Assembly: GCA_900752815.1 (NCBI GenBank)
Contig: CAADWS010000054.1
Span: 1-6,307, forward strand
Direction of reading: 5' to 3'
DNA length: 6,307 bases
DNA from: Bacteroidaceae bacterium
GTDB lineage: Bacteria; Bacteroidota; Bacteroidia; Bacteroidales; Bacteroidaceae
A program made the translations under genes and the position numbers. Numbering within the stretch: position 1 is the stretch's first letter; the number at the start of each line of letters is the position of its first letter. Below, piece by piece: positions 773-6,307 of this stretch. The notes under the pieces were generated by a model. It worked only from the letters and a program-made list of their open reading frames with translations. It searched no databases and had not been told where the DNA came from.

Positions 773-991
773 TTACTTGTCTTTTATGTATGTGGATGCC
801 GGGGATTCCATTCCACCGACCTCGACAAGGTGCCGTGTCCCGGCTGTGCAGGGTTTTTCGGGAAAATACCGCAGCTCCGCGAGGATGATTTTCCTGAAAA
901 CCGCCTGCGGCCTGACCTTGCTCAGCCGATGGGGACGCGGCTTACCTTTGTCGGTGGGAATGGAACTCCCGGTCTTCTTCATACGGTTCAT
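773..991 (-). CDS. 72-residue hypothetical ORF lying inside a palindrome; coding status doubtful
   Basis: The ORF begins 2 bases after the stop of the methyltransferase-helicase gene and ends 1 base before the ardA-like start, so its packing is that of a true operon gene. The product would be a basic peptide (MNRMKKTG..., with VFRKIILAELRYFPEKPC around residues 31-48). Against coding, most of it (801-970) is one long imperfect palindrome whose stem pairing is preserved in a second copy at 5899-6070. In that second copy the matching frame keeps KIILA--LRYF--KPC--GTR but has no ATG (ACA at the equivalent place) and ends at a TAA at 5919-5921. The shared peptide words coincide with the loop and bulge bases that are also conserved in DNA, so the peptide similarity may be a by-product of nucleic-acid structure. 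I see no recognised domain. It is kept because spacing and start codon are good; it could be dual-purpose or not translated. Confidence 0.4.
   Translation of the reverse strand: MNRMKKTGSSIPTDKGKPRPHRLSKVRPQAVFRKIILAELRYFPEKPCTAGTRHLVEVGGMESPASTYIKDK
801..970 (-). promoter_or_regulatory. Long imperfect palindrome, copy A; candidate single-stranded-DNA promoter for the ardA-like gene
   Basis: The arms 801-853 and 916-970 pair with about 42 Watson-Crick pairs: 801-820 with 950-970, 827-831 with 944-948, 832-840 with 933-941, 841-846 with 923-928, and 848-853 with 916-921. Irregularities are a 4-base bulge (929-932), a T.T mismatch (847/922), an unpaired left patch (821-826) and bulged TT (942-943). 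Copy B repeats these at matching places with different stem sequence. The right arm holds TACCTTTG (943-950). If the + strand folds, this box reads from loop to stem base, and transcription would leave the hairpin leftward with the + strand as template, giving an ardA-like mRNA with a leader of roughly 40 bases. Known precedent: Frpo of F and ssi elements near ColIb ardA. The strand given is the predicted transcription direction. Alternatives are a structured RNA or a palindromic repeat. The palindrome is certain; the promoter role is inference. Confidence 0.75.
943..950 (+). promoter_or_regulatory. -7 box TACCTTTG in the right arm of palindrome A
   Basis: TACCTTTG matches the Bacteroidota sigma-factor -7 consensus TAnnTTTG exactly, and is identical in palindrome B. 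CTTG at 917-920 lies 22 bases upstream as a possible weak -33 (consensus TTTG, usual spacing about 19-21). Its first T is in a bulge (942-943) in the folded hairpin, and the left-arm bases opposite its end (821-826) are mostly unpaired, which would help melting. In duplex DNA the box would drive antisense transcription rightward into the end of the methyltransferase gene. The mirrored minus-strand sequence in the left arm (CACCTTG) lacks the TA. Confidence 0.45.
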
Positions 992-993
992 AT

Positions 994-3900
994 TTATTCT
1001 GTTATGCGCTGGCTTCCCCAGCTGATGTGTATTTTGCCTTCACTGTCCTGCGTGCGGATGAGCAGGCTGTCGATGACAGACATTGTGATGTCGAACTCCT
1101 CGAAGATTTCTGACTGTTCTTTGACCTCACCGGTCTTGATGAATTCGTTCAGACGCTCCTTGGTCAGTACCAGTGCCATCAGGTTCTGTTCGACCGAATC
1201 TTCGTAGGTGACGTAGTGGACATCCTTCATTTCTTTGGAATCGAGACGGATGAAACGGAAGTAGAACTGTTCCATACGGGGGATGTTCCACTGCAGGGAT
1301 TCCAGTATCACGTCGTTGCAGGTAGGTATGTTCACGGAGCTGCTCAGGCTCTGCTGTGTGCATATCAGGATGCCGTTGATGGTGGAGTCGAATTCGGTCA
1401 CGATGCTCTGCCGTTTCTTGAAGGCTACATCTCCCTTGACCACAAATACAGGTCTGTCGGGAAAATGTTCCCGGATATAGCTCTCGTAGAGGTCGAAGGC
1501 CGCCAATGTGGTACATCCGATGGCAACCTTACCCGGTATTGTCCTTATGAGCCTTTCAATATAGCGGGTCTTGGAAGGATAACTGTCACCGTAGTATCCC
1601 TCTATCAGGTGAGGTACCGAACAGGCTTTGATAAGCAGCTTGATCTGCCTCATGAGTCTCAGTCCTGCATCCTTTTTCGTGTCTCCCGTGCTGTTGTAGT
1701 ACAGCTCACAGATGCGGCAGAATTCCTCGATGATGACACGGTATACCTCGTGTTCTCCTTCCGAGGGACGGACGGTATGTGTCCGTATCCGGTATTTCTC
1801 TCCTGCGAAGTCCCTGAATTTACGGGTGATGACCGTTTTGCCGATAAGTTCGGAGAGTTCGTCCTTGTTGTACACGTCCTGGTTCTGTTTCTCGATGCCG
1901 AATACAGTGGCTTTCCCCGGACAGTGGCAGGCACGGAAAAGGACATGCCCCCTGAAGGCGGGGAACGGTGTTCCGTAATCCGGGTTGTTCTCTTCCTCTA
2001 TCTCGTGGTCCCTGTTTTCGTGGTAGACCTGCGGGCTCCAGCATATCATATTTACGGAGTTGTTGTAGAGTAGTTCGAACTGGCTGTACAGTTCCGCGAT
2101 GTTGTTGCGGGTGGTTGTTCCCGTGTCGAGGATCTTGTACCTGAGCCTCCTGAATATGCACAGGATGTTTCTTGTACGCTGCGATGTGGGATTGGTGATT
2201 TCGTCCGACTCGTCGAAGACAAGGCACAGCTTGCCGGAAGTGCGTTTCACGAAACGCATCAGTCCTCTTTTCAGTTTCCGGAGCATGGAGGTGGAGACGA
2301 CAAGGAATGTCCCTTCCGGTATGTTGTTGAGGTCGCCGGCGGTCTGTATTGTACGGAAGCGTTCCTTGTTTATGGTAAGGAACGGTATCCAGGTCATGTT
2401 GGTGGCGATGGCCGGGGCAAGTATGATGACGTTCTTTGCCTTTCTGAACTTGAGCAGGTATTTCGCCCTGTGATAGACGGCGGCGGTCTTGCCTGAACCC
2501 TGCTGCCAGTTCAGCAGGGCGTAGCGTTTCTGCAACACGAGGTTCAGGTCGTGTTTCTGCAAGTCCGTGAATTCGCAGACTTCACCGTCCTTGTTGATGA
2601 ATGTGGTGCGGTCCAGGTATTCCTTCAGGCCGGCATCTTCCCGCATTTCCGCAAACTGGAGATTCTGGGTCTCGTATTGCCTCTGTTTGCGCCGTATCAG
2701 TTTACTGGCGGCACGGATCTGCCGCATGTTCTTTTCTGTGACGTTTTCCGGCATCGGGAGTTCGGCCCTTCCGAGTATGAGGTCGTTGATGCCTGCGGCC
2801 TTGTGCGTGACCTTGTCAAGCAGACGCGGGGCATATTGCTTCAGCTTGAAGCCGTAGGATGTCTTCACCAATGCCACTTCCTTGCGCGGCACCACGTTCT
2901 GCGAGGTGATGTACCTGCGGATGATGCCGAGAACCTTGCCGGTGGTCAGCTTCTTGCGTTCCCATTCCTTTATCTGTTCCCGGGTGGCATTTTCCGGCGG
3001 TTTCTGGTTGCGGAATTTGGACACCAGCGCCTCCGCCTTTTCGACATGCCTGTTCAGCACGGCATGGGCTTTCAGCTCGTACATGTATTTGGCGAGCCTG
3101 TACTCGAACTGTTCCAGCTCTTCTTTGTCTATATGGTTGCACTCCCGCATCAGCTGGAGGCGCAGCCGGTGTTTCATTTTCCGCACTTCGGCTATGCGTT
3201 TCTTCAGCTCATCCATGCTGACAAACTCTTCCGCGTTGTAGGGCTGCATTTCAATATGGAGGGAACGGCGGAGGAATACCATGATTTTTGTTGCGAAATT
3301 CTGCACGCCCACCGTAGAGAAGGCTGAATGTTCCAGCCTGGTCTGGCCGATGAAGGAGAAATTCGAGTTGATTTTCGCCACGCGTGTCTTTTCCCAGAAC
3401 TCGTTCTGCATGAAGGAGAGAGGGACGATGACCATCAGGATTCCGGCAGGGTTGAGCACGTCATAGGCCTTGTCCATGTAGAATTCCTGCGACAGCCTGT
3501 AATCAAATTTCAGGTTGAAGGGCGGATTTCCGACAATGATGTCGAAACGCTGTTCGGGATTGTACAGCTGTATGTCGCATTTCTCGATATGAGCTTCCGG
3601 GTAGAGGTATCTGGCAACGGCCACCGCCTTGCCGTCAATGTCGAATCCGTAGGCATTGTGCAGGTTGGGCAGATGGTTGAAGAAGTTGCCCATGCCGCAG
3701 CACATGTCAAGTACCATTTCCGCCGATGTCGGAGAAAGGGTCTCCACCATGCTCCGGCATATGTCGTGCGGGGTGAAGAACTGTCCCATCTCGAATTCCT
3801 TCTTGGCCTCGGCGTATTCATGGTAGCTGGTGAAATCCGACTGCCTGAGGTTGTGCAGTCCTCCGATTCCCGTGTAGCAGTTGTAGATGCTTTCCTTCGG

Positions 3901-3996
3901 AACGAGGTCCTTGCCGGAGTCTATGGCGAAAAGGATTTTCTCGTTGATCTCGGCACGCCTGTCCTGGGGAATCTGTTGGGGTATGATGGCATACAT
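994..3996 (-). CDS. N6-adenine DNA methyltransferase fused to an SF2/SNF2-like helicase (1000 residues)
   Basis: The N-terminal third is a class I adenine methyltransferase: GQFFTP (71-76) as in type I HsdM and type IIG enzymes, SAM-binding motif VLDMCCGMGNF (95-105), acidic FDID (118-121), and catalytic NPPF (157-160). A charged, probably helical linker of about 200 residues (262-460) follows. The C-terminal half is a helicase: QKHDLNLVLQKRYALLNWQQGSGKT-type region with Walker A GSGKT (500-504), motif Ia-like ILAPAIAT (525-532), DESD motif II (595-598), TGTTTR at the motif III place (625-630), motif V-like ILICTQQSLSSSVNI (876-890), and a degenerate motif VI (QFYFRFIR, 910-917). No nuclease motif or target-recognition domain is evident to me, so it is not an obvious restriction enzyme. 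Related methylase-helicase fusions in phages and conjugative elements (for example DarB of P1) act in antirestriction; that role here is inferred. The ATG at 3996 has the leader AAAAGAAAAGAC. Its stop is 2 bases from the next ORF. Confidence 0.95.
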   Translation of the reverse strand: MYAIIPQQIPQDRRAEINEKILFAIDSGKDLVPKESIYNCYTGIGGLHNLRQSDFTSYHEYAEAKKEFEMGQFFTPHDICRSMVETLSPTSAEMVLDMCCGMGNFFNHLPNLHNAYGFDIDGKAVAVARYLYPEAHIEKCDIQLYNPEQRFDIIVGNPPFNLKFDYRLSQEFYMDKAYDVLNPAGILMVIVPLSFMQNEFWEKTRVAKINSNFSFIGQTRLEHSAFSTVGVQNFATKIMVFLRRSLHIEMQPYNAEEFVSMDELKKRIAEVRKMKHRLRLQLMRECNHIDKEELEQFEYRLAKYMYELKAHAVLNRHVEKAEALVSKFRNQKPPENATREQIKEWERKKLTTGKVLGIIRRYITSQNVVPRKEVALVKTSYGFKLKQYAPRLLDKVTHKAAGINDLILGRAELPMPENVTEKNMRQIRAASKLIRRKQRQYETQNLQFAEMREDAGLKEYLDRTTFINKDGEVCEFTDLQKHDLNLVLQKRYALLNWQQGSGKTAAVYHRAKYLLKFRKAKNVIILAPAIATNMTWIPFLTINKERFRTIQTAGDLNNIPEGTFLVVSTSMLRKLKRGLMRFVKRTSGKLCLVFDESDEITNPTSQRTRNILCIFRRLRYKILDTGTTTRNNIAELYSQFELLYNNSVNMICWSPQVYHENRDHEIEEENNPDYGTPFPAFRGHVLFRACHCPGKATVFGIEKQNQDVYNKDELSELIGKTVITRKFRDFAGEKYRIRTHTVRPSEGEHEVYRVIIEEFCRICELYYNSTGDTKKDAGLRLMRQIKLLIKACSVPHLIEGYYGDSYPSKTRYIERLIRTIPGKVAIGCTTLAAFDLYESYIREHFPDRPVFVVKGDVAFKKRQSIVTEFDSTINGILICTQQSLSSSVNIPTCNDVILESLQWNIPRMEQFYFRFIRLDSKEMKDVHYVTYEDSVEQNLMALVLTKERLNEFIKTGEVKEQSEIFEEFDITMSVIDSLLIRTQDSEGKIHISWGSQRITE

Positions 3997-4076: not shown

Positions 4077-5018
4077 TCACTCTTCTCTGAGTGTGATTTC
4101 ATCCAGCCGCAGCCTTCTGTAGCAGTTCTCTGCGGCCTGGCTGTCCTTGAAGCGTACGTCGATGCGTCCGTTCTTGTAGAACTTGATCTGTTCTGCGTTG
4201 CTCAGGGTGAGGTTGTACCATTCGGTTATATCCACATCGCGTCTGTCAAGGCCGATGACCATACCGCTTGAACCGTTTATCACGTCATCTGCCCCGTATG
4301 CGATACCTTCGCAGAAAATGTCCACTTTCCTTCCGCAGTCATACGAGAACTCATATTCCCGGTGGTATTCCAGATGGATGCTGTCCCAGGACACGATGTC
4401 AGGGAAAGTTATCTTGTCCTTTTTCAGTTCGGGCTTCACCTTGCTCCAGCGGGAAGGCTGTACCGTTTTCAGGAAACGGGCCAGCAGTTCTTCCTCTGCG
4501 GTCTCACGGAAACTTTTTCCGCCGAGGTGTTCAATGACCATGTCCACGTAAGTCTGGTAGACCGGACGGAATCCCATGCGCATGGCCTTCTCGTCGATTA
4601 CAGGAATGGGTACGTCTACATTGTAGGTCCTGTTGAAATAGGAAATGATGCGATTCGCGAAATTCGCGTTGGCATTGCAGTTGTTGTCCGCAAGCTCGTT
4701 GATGAGGTCAAACGGTTTGAATTCGTTGTGGGTATAGTCATCCTCCCCGCTGTTGTTGAAATAGAAATTCCGTATGGAGACCTTACCGTTATCCTCATAC
4801 TTGAAGCTCTTGATTTCCCGGTACCGTTCCGCTTCTTCCTTGAAGATGGCATACCAACGGTCGATACGGTCAAGCGTCTTGTAGAGCTGGTCCTGCTGGA
4901 GCTGGCAATACTGCCTGTCCTGTTCTGTAATCTTGTCCTCGTTCCTTACTTGCACGTTCAGGATACCTGTGAGCAGGTCAGTGTGGCTGCCTGCTGTTCT
5001 TGTTGCTGTTGTCTGCAT
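4077..5018 (-). CDS. Conserved hypothetical protein, 313 residues; weak DUF4942-like C-terminus
   Basis: This is a soluble-looking protein with no signal peptide or membrane segment. Residues about 28-75 are highly charged and probably helical, possibly coiled coil (QDRQYCQLQQDQLYKTLDR...). The middle contains an Asn-rich stretch (111-122) and a helical segment (146-187). The C-terminus has SSGMVIGLDRRDVDI (240-254) and EQIKFYKNGRIDVRFKD (266-282). The KNG-x-x-D-[VI]-x-F pattern recalls the end of DUF4942 proteins, some of which occur with SAM methyltransferases, but I cannot confirm that family by eye. The start (MQTTATRTAG) follows the previous gene by 12 bases and has an A-rich leader (AAAACAATACAG). 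The neighbouring methyltransferase-helicase downstream makes a role in DNA modification or element transfer plausible, but no function is shown by the sequence. Confidence 0.9.
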   Translation of the reverse strand: MQTTATRTAGSHTDLLTGILNVQVRNEDKITEQDRQYCQLQQDQLYKTLDRIDRWYAIFKEEAERYREIKSFKYEDNGKVSIRNFYFNNSGEDDYTHNEFKPFDLINELADNNCNANANFANRIISYFNRTYNVDVPIPVIDEKAMRMGFRPVYQTYVDMVIEHLGGKSFRETAEEELLARFLKTVQPSRWSKVKPELKKDKITFPDIVSWDSIHLEYHREYEFSYDCGRKVDIFCEGIAYGADDVINGSSGMVIGLDRRDVDITEWYNLTLSNAEQIKFYKNGRIDVRFKDSQAAENCYRRLRLDEITLREE

Positions 5019-5030
5019 AACTGTATTGTT

Positions 5031-5861
5031 TTAGAGATTGTCAATTTCGGGTTTGATACGGTAACAGTAGGTGATGTGGCTGTCCATGTCCTTGACCAGC
5101 TTGACCTGTTCGGGATAAAAGTTGAGACGCCGTTCCACGGCCTGGACATCTATTTTGTCCCACTCGTGCTGCGGCAGGAACCGGTTCTCATGACGGAAAC
5201 ACCAGAGAACGATATGGTTTTCCTGGTTGCCCTTGAACACGGTCCCTTCATAGTCCTTCAGGAACTGTAGGAAGTCCTCTTCGGTCCTGAAAGCCTTGTC
5301 GAAGCCTTGGTACAGGTTACGTGCGTCCGGACCCGTGTTTTTTGTCAGATAATACTGTCTCCATGTCTCAGTGGTGAAATCGCCGTAGAGAGGGTCAGGT
5401 TCGGAATAGGACCATAACGGCACTTTTGCCGTGAATGCGACGGCACCGTTGGCGCACGCACCGCAGTTGCCCCAGTCTTGGAATATCCCTTCCGTCCATC
5501 TGACGAACTTCAACTGGAGGGGGTCAATATGGTGGAAGGATCCTCCGCTGACACTTAAACCGATACCGTCATACTCTTCCCATATGAAAGGGATATAGGG
5601 GATTTCACAGATGGAAATCAGTCCGTCCGTATTTTTGCGTTTCTCGATGAGGGCGTTGCCGTAATATTTCCCGTATCTGTCCACATAGATGAGTCTGTCA
5701 CCGACCTGTGGAATCTTTTCAGAGCGTGTCCTTTCTATCAGTTCCACATAACCGTTGGCCATATCCACGTCCTGCTGTGTCAGCCGGTGTTCATGATCGT
5801 ACAGAATGTTCAGTGGTTTGAGTGTTTCCACCGTGTACTTGTTCTTTGTTGCCTGTAACAT
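5031..5861 (-). CDS. Conserved mobile-element protein, 276 residues, possibly DUF4121-type
   Basis: This is the first sizeable gene of the leftward operon. The protein has a compact beta-rich centre: QVGDRLIYVDRYGKYYGNA (52-70), SGGSFHHID (105-113) and DWGNCGACANGAVAF (129-143) with a C-x-x-C pair (C133, C136), then a helical C-terminal half. The G-D-x-[VI]-x-Y, GGS and WG-x-CGAC-x-GA-V signatures recall DUF4121, a family of unknown function common in Bacteroides conjugative elements; I make that link from memory and hold it loosely. The paired cysteines could bind metal with other residues, but no second CxxC is present. The ATG at 5861 is preceded by an A-rich leader (AACAAAAAATCAAATGTT) and by a small hairpin and palindrome B, so expression is probably set by that leader. 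Confidence 0.93.
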   Translation of the reverse strand: MLQATKNKYTVETLKPLNILYDHEHRLTQQDVDMANGYVELIERTRSEKIPQVGDRLIYVDRYGKYYGNALIEKRKNTDGLISICEIPYIPFIWEEYDGIGLSVSGGSFHHIDPLQLKFVRWTEGIFQDWGNCGACANGAVAFTAKVPLWSYSEPDPLYGDFTTETWRQYYLTKNTGPDARNLYQGFDKAFRTEEDFLQFLKDYEGTVFKGNQENHIVLWCFRHENRFLPQHEWDKIDVQAVERRLNFYPEQVKLVKDMDSHITYCYRIKPEIDNL

Positions 5862-5881: not shown

Positions 5882-5900
5882 TCCGGCTTCTGGGGCCGGA
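5882..5900 (-). promoter_or_regulatory. Short GC hairpin in the leader of the 276-residue gene
   Basis: TCCGGC (5882-5887) and GCCGGA (5895-5900) form a 6-pair stem with a 7-base loop, about 20 bases upstream of the ATG at 5861 and abutting the base of palindrome B. On the minus-strand mRNA it lies just ahead of the A-rich leader and could affect ribosome access or mRNA stability. No T-run follows, so a terminator is unlikely. There is no equally clear hairpin at the matching place downstream of palindrome A. Confidence 0.45.
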
Positions 5901-6070
5901 GTTCCCATAACTACAGGCTTAAAAAGGTCGTGTTCCGTACATGCAAGGCTTCGGGAAAAAATACCGCAAGCCCTCCGGGGCGAGGATGATTTTTTCCACG
6001 AACCCGAAGGGCTTGGCCTTGCTTGTACGGGAAGAACACGAATTACCTTTGCCTGTGGTTATGGGGACTC
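5899..6070 (-). promoter_or_regulatory. Long imperfect palindrome, copy B; candidate single-stranded-DNA promoter for the operon
   Basis: The arms 5899-5949 and 6016-6070 pair with about 44 Watson-Crick pairs: 5899-5918 with 6051-6070 (two T.G), 5923-5928 with 6045-6050, 5929-5935 with 6034-6040, 5936-5941 with 6024-6029, and 5943-5949 with 6016-6022. It shares with copy A a 4-base right-arm bulge (6030-6033), a T.T mismatch (5942/6023), an unpaired left patch (5919-5922) and a bulge (6041-6044) that includes the first T of TACCTTTG. Four consecutive stem pairs, 5938-5941 here against 843-846 in copy A, differ by compensatory changes on both sides, so pairing has been selected rather than sequence. 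Folded as + strand, the -7 box directs transcription out of the stem base toward the ATG at 5861. A matching peptide frame (minus strand, stop at 5919-5921) has no ATG, so this copy is not an ordinary gene. Structured RNA is the chief alternative. Confidence 0.78.
6044..6051 (+). promoter_or_regulatory. -7 box TACCTTTG in the right arm of palindrome B
   Basis: This is an exact TAnnTTTG match, identical to the box in palindrome A although much of the surrounding stem has changed. CTTG at 6018-6021 lies 22 bases upstream, as in copy A, and another CTTG at 6022-6025 gives a spacing of 18. In the folded + strand the box points from the loop to the stem base and so toward the 276-residue gene. In duplex DNA it points the opposite way, into the right-hand leader. 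Confidence 0.45.
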
Positions 6071-6153
6071 GGCTACGGTATGCTTGTTTTTCCCGATATG
6101 TTTTTATTCCGTAAGATTGCAGCCGTTTATATGGCCTTTTCAGAAAGAAATGT

Positions 6154-6161
6154 TATCTTTG
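6154..6161 (+). promoter_or_regulatory. Candidate rightward promoter, -7 box TATCTTTG
   Basis: TATCTTTG fits TAnnTTTG exactly. The best upstream -33 candidate is TTTA at 6126-6129, 24 bases away, which is weak in both sequence and spacing. A start shortly after 6165 would give a short leader before the ATG at 6190. About three such 6-base-defined matches are expected by chance on both strands of a window this size, so this is tentative. Confidence 0.35.
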
Positions 6162-6189
6162 CAGGTGAGATAAAGAGTTATTTGAAAGC

Positions 6190-6282
6190 ATGAGAAATAT
6201 GGCGGTTCGGAACAGTCCGGCTTTTTCTTATCCATTGCCCGTTCTCGTGCGAGTTTTATCCAATCTGTTGATAGTCAAATAA
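6190..6282 (+). CDS. Possible 30-residue leader peptide or spurious small ORF
   Basis: ATG at 6190 opens a 30-codon frame ending at TAA 6280-6282, with product MRNMAVRNSPAF... followed by a hydrophobic end (LPVLVRVLSNLLIVK). It lies about 28 bases after a TATCTTTG box and is preceded by an A-rich stretch (GATAAAGAG...GAAAG). No family is recognised. It could be the leader of a rightward gene beyond the window, or a chance ORF; its short length gives little statistical support. Confidence 0.2.
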   Translation: MRNMAVRNSPAFSYPLPVLVRVLSNLLIVK

Positions 6283-6299
6283 AACCTACCTGATTACAA

Positions 6300-6307
6300 C
6301 AAATATA
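6300..6307 (-). promoter_or_regulatory. Candidate leftward promoter at the right edge, -7 box TATATTTG
   Basis: Read on the minus strand the last eight bases are TATATTTG, an exact TAnnTTTG match. It would start a leftward transcript near 6292 that crosses the 6190-6282 ORF in antisense and palindrome B before reaching the 276-residue gene, a leader of about 430 bases. The -33 region is outside the window, so the call rests on one element. If real, it would be the ordinary duplex-DNA promoter of the operon, with palindrome B then transcribed into RNA. Confidence 0.3.

Follow-up and report, generated by a model that had tools for sequence, protein, structure and literature searches.

Hairpins of Bacteroidota conjugative elements as a probable family of single-stranded-DNA promoters

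Enterobacterial plasmids are known to carry single-stranded promoters. Frpo of plasmid F is described as a long imperfect hairpin formed by one strand, which rebuilds promoter boxes and gives early expression in vivo (PMC9849209). In F, ssb follows Frpo2, and a pair of genes, the second encoding a DUF932 protein, follows Frpo1. Samuel et al. 2024 based their search on five known Frpo/ssi sequences and on -35/-10 consensus boxes; the main text of the paper contains no word beginning "Bacteroid" (PMC11541004). Our own literature search covered titles and the beginnings of abstracts, with preprints outside its range and subscription papers sparse, and among the matches listed it gave no description of elements like these from Bacteroidota. 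Promoters of sigma-ABfr have TAnnTTTG as their -7 box and a motif containing TTG around -33 (PMC7366714).

We analysed a window of 6,307 nt, by which we mean the whole stretch of contig CAADWS010000054.1 from a Bacteroidaceae bacterium. An initial annotation had taken a long palindrome upstream of an ardA-like gene in the window for a Bacteroidota counterpart of Frpo and ssi. This reading is supported by a family of related palindromes, by the promoter box, by the side on which the relaxase lies and by homology to ArdA, and we consider it probable, at roughly 0.78, that the hairpin is a sigma-ABfr-type single-stranded-DNA promoter of a Bacteroidota ICE, Frpo-like in function and unrelated in sequence.

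The palindrome in question, palindrome 1, occupies positions 801-970 of the + strand. Folded as DNA, the region 781-1000 has a minimum free energy of -57.3 kcal/mol (z -8.07), and none of 200 shuffles was equally stable. The 170-base hairpin thus stands, with 68 predicted pairs inside 801-970 rather than the approximately 42 first counted. Its right arm holds CCTTG at 916-920 (+), a -33-like element within a paired stem (mean P(unpaired) 0.04-0.05 over 89 copies), and 22 nt after it the -7 box TACCTTTG at 943-950 (+), which places a TAnnTTTG box where it had been annotated. In the predicted structure T942 has no partner, nor has T943, the first T of the box; A944-T948 form pairs with 827-831, and on the opposite arm 821-824 and 826 stay single, in agreement with the proposed bulge at the first T and loose bases opposite. 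The complement of palindrome 1 also folds strongly (z -7.02), as the complement of any palindrome would, but its fold is 5.7 kcal/mol weaker than that of the + strand. Rfam gave no match, either for the whole window at the gathering score or for 760-1010 at E <= 5, and a 72-aa ORF across the palindrome has no Pfam match.

A homologous palindrome 2 lies at 5896-6075 (+; DNA fold z -9.59). For this one the shuffle z favours the complement (-10.2 vs -9.6), and the lower energy is that of the + fold. It repeats the arrangement of palindrome 1, with CCTTG at 6017-6021 (+) and TACCTTTG at 6044-6051 (+), again 22 nt after CCTTG. The string CCTTG-N22-TAnnTTTG occurs exactly twice on the window's + strand, once per palindrome (the second at 6017-6051). 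The apices carry AAAATACCGCA at 863-873 and 5958-5968 and GCGAGGATGATTTT at 879-892 and 5980-5993, all on the + strand; among seven copies in the same genome the former is invariant bar one position and the latter is invariant. A model built on these seven copies, R1, scores palindrome 1 at 112.7 bits (831-952) and palindrome 2 at 105.9 bits (5924-6053), both being among the copies used to build it.

Each palindrome has a minus-strand gene as its proposed target. For palindrome 1 this is the gene at 280-771, with its start at 771, and for palindrome 2 a gene at 5031-5861 encoding a DUF4121 protein (PF13497, E 4.9e-66). The product of 280-771 has no direct Pfam match at E <= 1, and a fold search with an ArdA-like structure model (pTM 0.62) returned no usable match. 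Its identity was settled by sequence comparison: it matches a PF07275 ArdA, itself encoded downstream of a diverged palindrome copy elsewhere, with 36% identity over 118 aa (E 2e-26). The gene first labelled ardA-like is, on this evidence, a divergent ardA.

Between the palindromes, on the minus strand, lie a gene for a 1000-aa N6-methylase/SNF2-type helicase fusion (994-3996; PF02384, PF00271), which might shield the element from restriction, and one for a 313-aa protein (4077-5018) with no Pfam/NCBIfam match at E <= 0.01. At 6154-6307, TATCTTTG on the + strand opens a AAAGAGTTATTTGAAAGCATGAGAAATATGGCG-like stretch common to eight loci. This stretch sits between the end of the rteB-like gene and palindrome 2, and it is perhaps the small RNA RteR.

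The window corresponds to positions 79043-85349, minus strand, of contig C129 in its own genome (G000). Pfam finds on C129 a relaxase (PF03432), a coupling protein, DUF4134, DUF4122, a primase, an EF-G-like GTPase and a sigma-54 response regulator, and the C129 element is a CTnDOT-type ICE. Going by size and gene order, its genes probably include those for TetQ, RteA, RteB, TraG and mobA as well as several with tra names. The annotation had predicted a mobile element with oriT to the left; the ICE has its relaxase and coupling genes on that side. C129 holds five copies of the palindrome, every one on the window's + strand, and one of them lies inside the tra operon, which runs in the opposite direction (L013 6022-6807). 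After this copy there is a gene with a SLOG/YpsA domain on the other strand. An inverted repeat at L013 10249-10305, tried for the position of the nick site, was ambiguous. Another contig of the same genome, C80, has two copies together, and R1 adds a further copy at 800. C80 appears to hold one ICE, which has a normal copy at 800, and a second rteAB/topA module that runs the opposite way.

The palindrome is not a single case but one of a family with relatives in Bacteroidota genomes, typically alongside conjugation genes. Scanning species genomes with the apex pattern gave at least 117 stretches. A fuzzy search gave 153 copies among the matches listed, of which 95 were kept as distinct and 89 were usable for the anatomy counts; related copies are not independent of each other, so that P values based on them are overstated. 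Within the same family R1 found 133 copies, spread over 44 of 121 genomes, and across the phylum it matched 11 of 296 genomes, nine of these in two further families. Contigs hold up to 10 copies. Copies at L018, L031, L066 and L064 come from MAGs titled Clostridium or Clostridiales, which may be binning errors.

Plasmids and phages were also searched. Palindrome 1 as a blastn query matched no plasmid record. A second query of this type matched four plasmid records, three of which were inspected: the largest carries ICE genes, the second only resistance-gene annotation, and the third includes a DUF4121 gene. Four phage records were matched, all without annotation. Viral contigs rarely contain the exact apex pattern: a collection of 2.9 million gave 18 stretches, located on 13 contigs, and ICE backbone genes are present in 13 of the 18 stretches.

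Across the 89 copies the right arm, read from loop to base, consists of a paired CCTTG, a spacer, the box and an outer stem. CCTTG lies 10-60 nt from the apex in 148 of 153 copies. The spacer between CCTTG and the box is 22 nt long in 58 of the 89 copies and 23 nt in 16, and 22-nt spacers have a 4-nt bulge in their middle. Taking the best-scoring 8-mer within a 10-offset window, the box reads nAnnTTTG in 80 of 89 copies and exactly TAnnTTTG in 51, and the remainder deviate mostly at the first T. The two n positions vary like those of the published sigma-ABfr consensus (PMC7366714). In a free search 49 of 88 right arms contained the exact TAnnTTTG, against 1.1 in shuffles and 1 in the complement; left arms read on the coding strand contained it in 0 of 88, against 1.0 in shuffles. 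The loop-to-base orientation of the box predicted for related palindromes is thus the one they keep.

We compared each arm with its own partner and with foreign arms in the 54 copies with a 22-nt spacer. Own arms matched at 11.7 of 15 positions in the spacer stems, against 6.3 for foreign arms, and at 8.6 against 5.4 of 11 positions in the outer stems. In the box the values were 3.35 and 3.45 of 7. The stems therefore covary and the box does not, which indicates that pairing is kept in the stems and letters are kept in the box. Most of the box lacks partners in 66 of 89 copies, whereas in 18 most of it is paired. The mostly paired state with loose flanks is that of both window copies and of many diverged copies, so that "pre-melted" is true of most copies, not all.

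These data bear on the view that the palindrome is a repeat of the MITE or REP type, or a recombination site, with no regulatory role. The many copies per element would fit such a repeat. However, the stems diverge while pairing, box, spacing and distance to the gene are kept, and in 50 of 53 cases a copy shares its strand with the closest further copy within 60 kb; we give this view hardly any credence.

The boxes share TAnnTTTG with sigma-ABfr promoters and have, in CCTTG, a possible counterpart of their TTG-containing -33 motif, and CCTTG-N22-TAnnTTTG is plausible as such a promoter in duplex DNA, where it would fire rightward and yield an antisense or noncoding RNA. Unlike those of sigma-ABfr promoters, the boxes lie within a palindrome and in duplex face away from the gene, the 22-nt spacer with its 4-nt bulge is unusual, and CCTTG is not the full TTTG of -33. 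The right side is also inconsistent: the right neighbour is on the minus strand in 59 of 89 copies, and the 30 "+" genes have scattered start distances. Past the right arm, at 95-300 nt, 27 of 88 copies have a rightward box, the next gene being "+" in 15 of the 27; eight of the 27, three of them within the 15, share one conserved stretch. A duplex promoter further leaves the covarying stems and the non-covarying box unexplained, and we regard it as very improbable.

The left side is more regular. Among the 83 copies with a left neighbour, this gene reads away from the hairpin in 74, and in 52 of the 74 its ATG lies 84-111 nt from the apex core; the other nine face the wrong way as called by a crude ORF caller. 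A tight distance directly upstream of start codons would also be found if the coding-strand transcript folded in its 5' UTR, as an RNA leader acting through attenuation or RNA stability, and the complement does fold strongly. Still, the box-bearing strand is the more stable of the two in 71 of 89 copies, whether DNA or RNA parameters are used. Among diverged copies, near-duplicates included, it is more stable in 48 of 49, and 44 of 49 have the exact box. The better fold of the box strand argues against a structure in coding-sense mRNA. Stem positions with GT outnumber those with AC by 47 to 21, a count that is weak because foreign arms lean likewise (2.24 vs 1.53 per copy). On the coding strand, TAnnTTTG upstream of the hairpin is at chance level (4 of 88 vs 4.4), the conserved promoter-like box would be antisense to the leader, and Rfam has no match to the window at the gathering score or to 760-1010 at E <= 5. 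Thus, we find an RNA leader quite unlikely and favour a promoter formed by the box-bearing strand.

The genes behind the hairpins include antirestriction genes, the setting foreseen in the initial annotation. Among 16 PF07275 ArdA genes from 53 genomes chosen for holding the element, 12 have a copy at most 2.2 kb upstream, always in the predicted orientation and directly upstream in seven; the other four have no copy in our list. DUF932 genes lie approximately 0.9-1.1 kb downstream of a copy in five of five cases, from four of the nine element-bearing genomes of the two further families, and in the single locus scanned an SSB gene (PF00436) sits between the copy and DUF932. For most other downstream families scanned, the function is unassigned.

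To relate the folded strand to transfer we used relaxase matches of E 2e-50 or better within 60 kb of a copy, which 66 of 133 copies have and 67 do not. In 64 of the 66 copies, and in 35 of 36 relaxase neighbourhoods, the nearest such relaxase lies on the strand opposite to the folded one; copies with only weak relaxase matches are opposite in 8 of 13. The two exceptions are both on C80 and adjoin that contig's second rteAB/topA module, which is on the minus strand, so they probably do not belong with the relaxase nearest to them. Of the 64 opposite copies, 43 are on the tra side, 40 of them at 14-37 kb and three at 4.8-5.7 kb, and 21 are on the mob side.

In CTnDOT-type elements mob lies near one end. 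In ColIb-P9, which is also of the MOBP type, ArdA and PsiB are encoded on the relaxase strand, upstream of nikA. An excision-deficient CTnERL is reported to have passed on part of its DNA together with a marker 20 kb from oriT (PMC5729914). The analogous ColIb-P9 layout and this partial transfer suggest that the window's + strand would be the transferred strand. Partial transfer of CTnERL, together with the position of mob, further suggests that the tra side would enter first, in which case the 21 mob-side copies would enter late.

The likeness to Frpo and to ssi of ColIb is one of design. In all of them a long imperfect hairpin of one strand presents promoter boxes just upstream of genes pointing to oriT, and elements hold multiple copies. 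Genes for DUF932 and SSB follow both F's Frpo1/Frpo2 and Bacteroidota copies, and ArdA, a leading-region gene in the part of ColIb considered here, is also encoded behind Bacteroidota copies. With the same folding procedure, the T strand of the segment common to Frpo1 and Frpo2 is more stable than its complement (-129.7 vs -114.0 and -120.9 vs -112.2), as is the folded strand of the Bacteroidota copies, and the shared segment ends 21-22 nt from the ATG.

In other respects they differ. The Bacteroidota box is TAnnTTTG whereas Frpo has a -10 TATAAT, the hairpin measures ~170 nt against ~470 for the shared Frpo1/Frpo2 segment, its conserved apex has no counterpart that we found in Frpo or ssi, and its copies lie mostly beyond the tra operon, unlike Frpo/ssi. 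R1 has no match at E <= 1 in the F or ColIb stretches (L135, L136), and Frpo2 as a query on ColIb matches behind ardA only (L136 4919-5189), with none in front. In the features examined the Bacteroidota hairpin would thus appear to work like Frpo; we do not place it in the Frpo family because sequence homology is undetectable.

The apex (AAAATACCG...GCGAGGATGATTTT; 863-892 and 5958-5993) is the most conserved part in the seven copies of the window's own genome. In the relatives its conservation is partly selection on our side, since most of them were found by the apex motif. The apex is more conserved than a promoter needs and is possibly a site for a protein or for priming.

This bears on a further alternative, a single-strand origin (sso/ssi) in which the hairpin mainly primes complementary-strand synthesis and gene expression is secondary. 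Another ICE, ICEBs1, has a known sso, where a single strand likewise folds and serves once transfer has taken place, and Frpo is said to have both roles, transcription and primer RNA synthesis (attributed to Masai and Arai, 1997). The strand preference fits an origin equally well, copies far from oriT pose no problem for it, and the apex could be its priming or helicase-loading site. Priming, however, needs neither a tight distance to the start codon nor up to 10 copies per contig, and unlike the sso of ICEBs1 most Bacteroidota copies are tied to a start codon. We therefore hold an origin as the main role to be unlikely.

For the promoter formed by the folded strand, we infer that polymerase uses it, that this depends on single-stranded DNA, that the folded strand is the one transferred and that expression is early. 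The palindrome would fold while the transferred strand, the window's + strand, is single-stranded in the recipient. CCTTG (-33) would then be in duplex, and TAnnTTTG (-7) either within an internal loop or in weakly paired DNA with bulges next to it. Host polymerase with the main sigma factor, sigma-ABfr, would bind and open this folded promoter, begin transcription near the base of the hairpin and exit leftward with the single strand as template. The mRNA would reach a gene some tens of bases further on, that of the divergent ArdA for palindrome 1 and that of the DUF4121 protein for palindrome 2. Synthesis of the second strand would then remove the hairpin, and the box in duplex would point away from the gene.

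With somewhat less assurance, we lean towards a wider picture in which Bacteroidota have a single-stranded promoter family of their own for sigma-ABfr. Its apex would probably be a binding site for a factor or a start point of second-strand synthesis, and the family would drive a programmed burst of ArdA, SSB, DUF932 and many unknown proteins at ICE entry. If this is true, a large number of genes that have not been studied and are likely to act against host defences are marked by the hairpins, and each hairpin would serve as a sequence tag for finding such genes next to it. It would also hint at how CTnDOT-type elements get past restriction barriers. An independently built version in a dominant gut phylum would show early expression from entering single strands to be a general solution.
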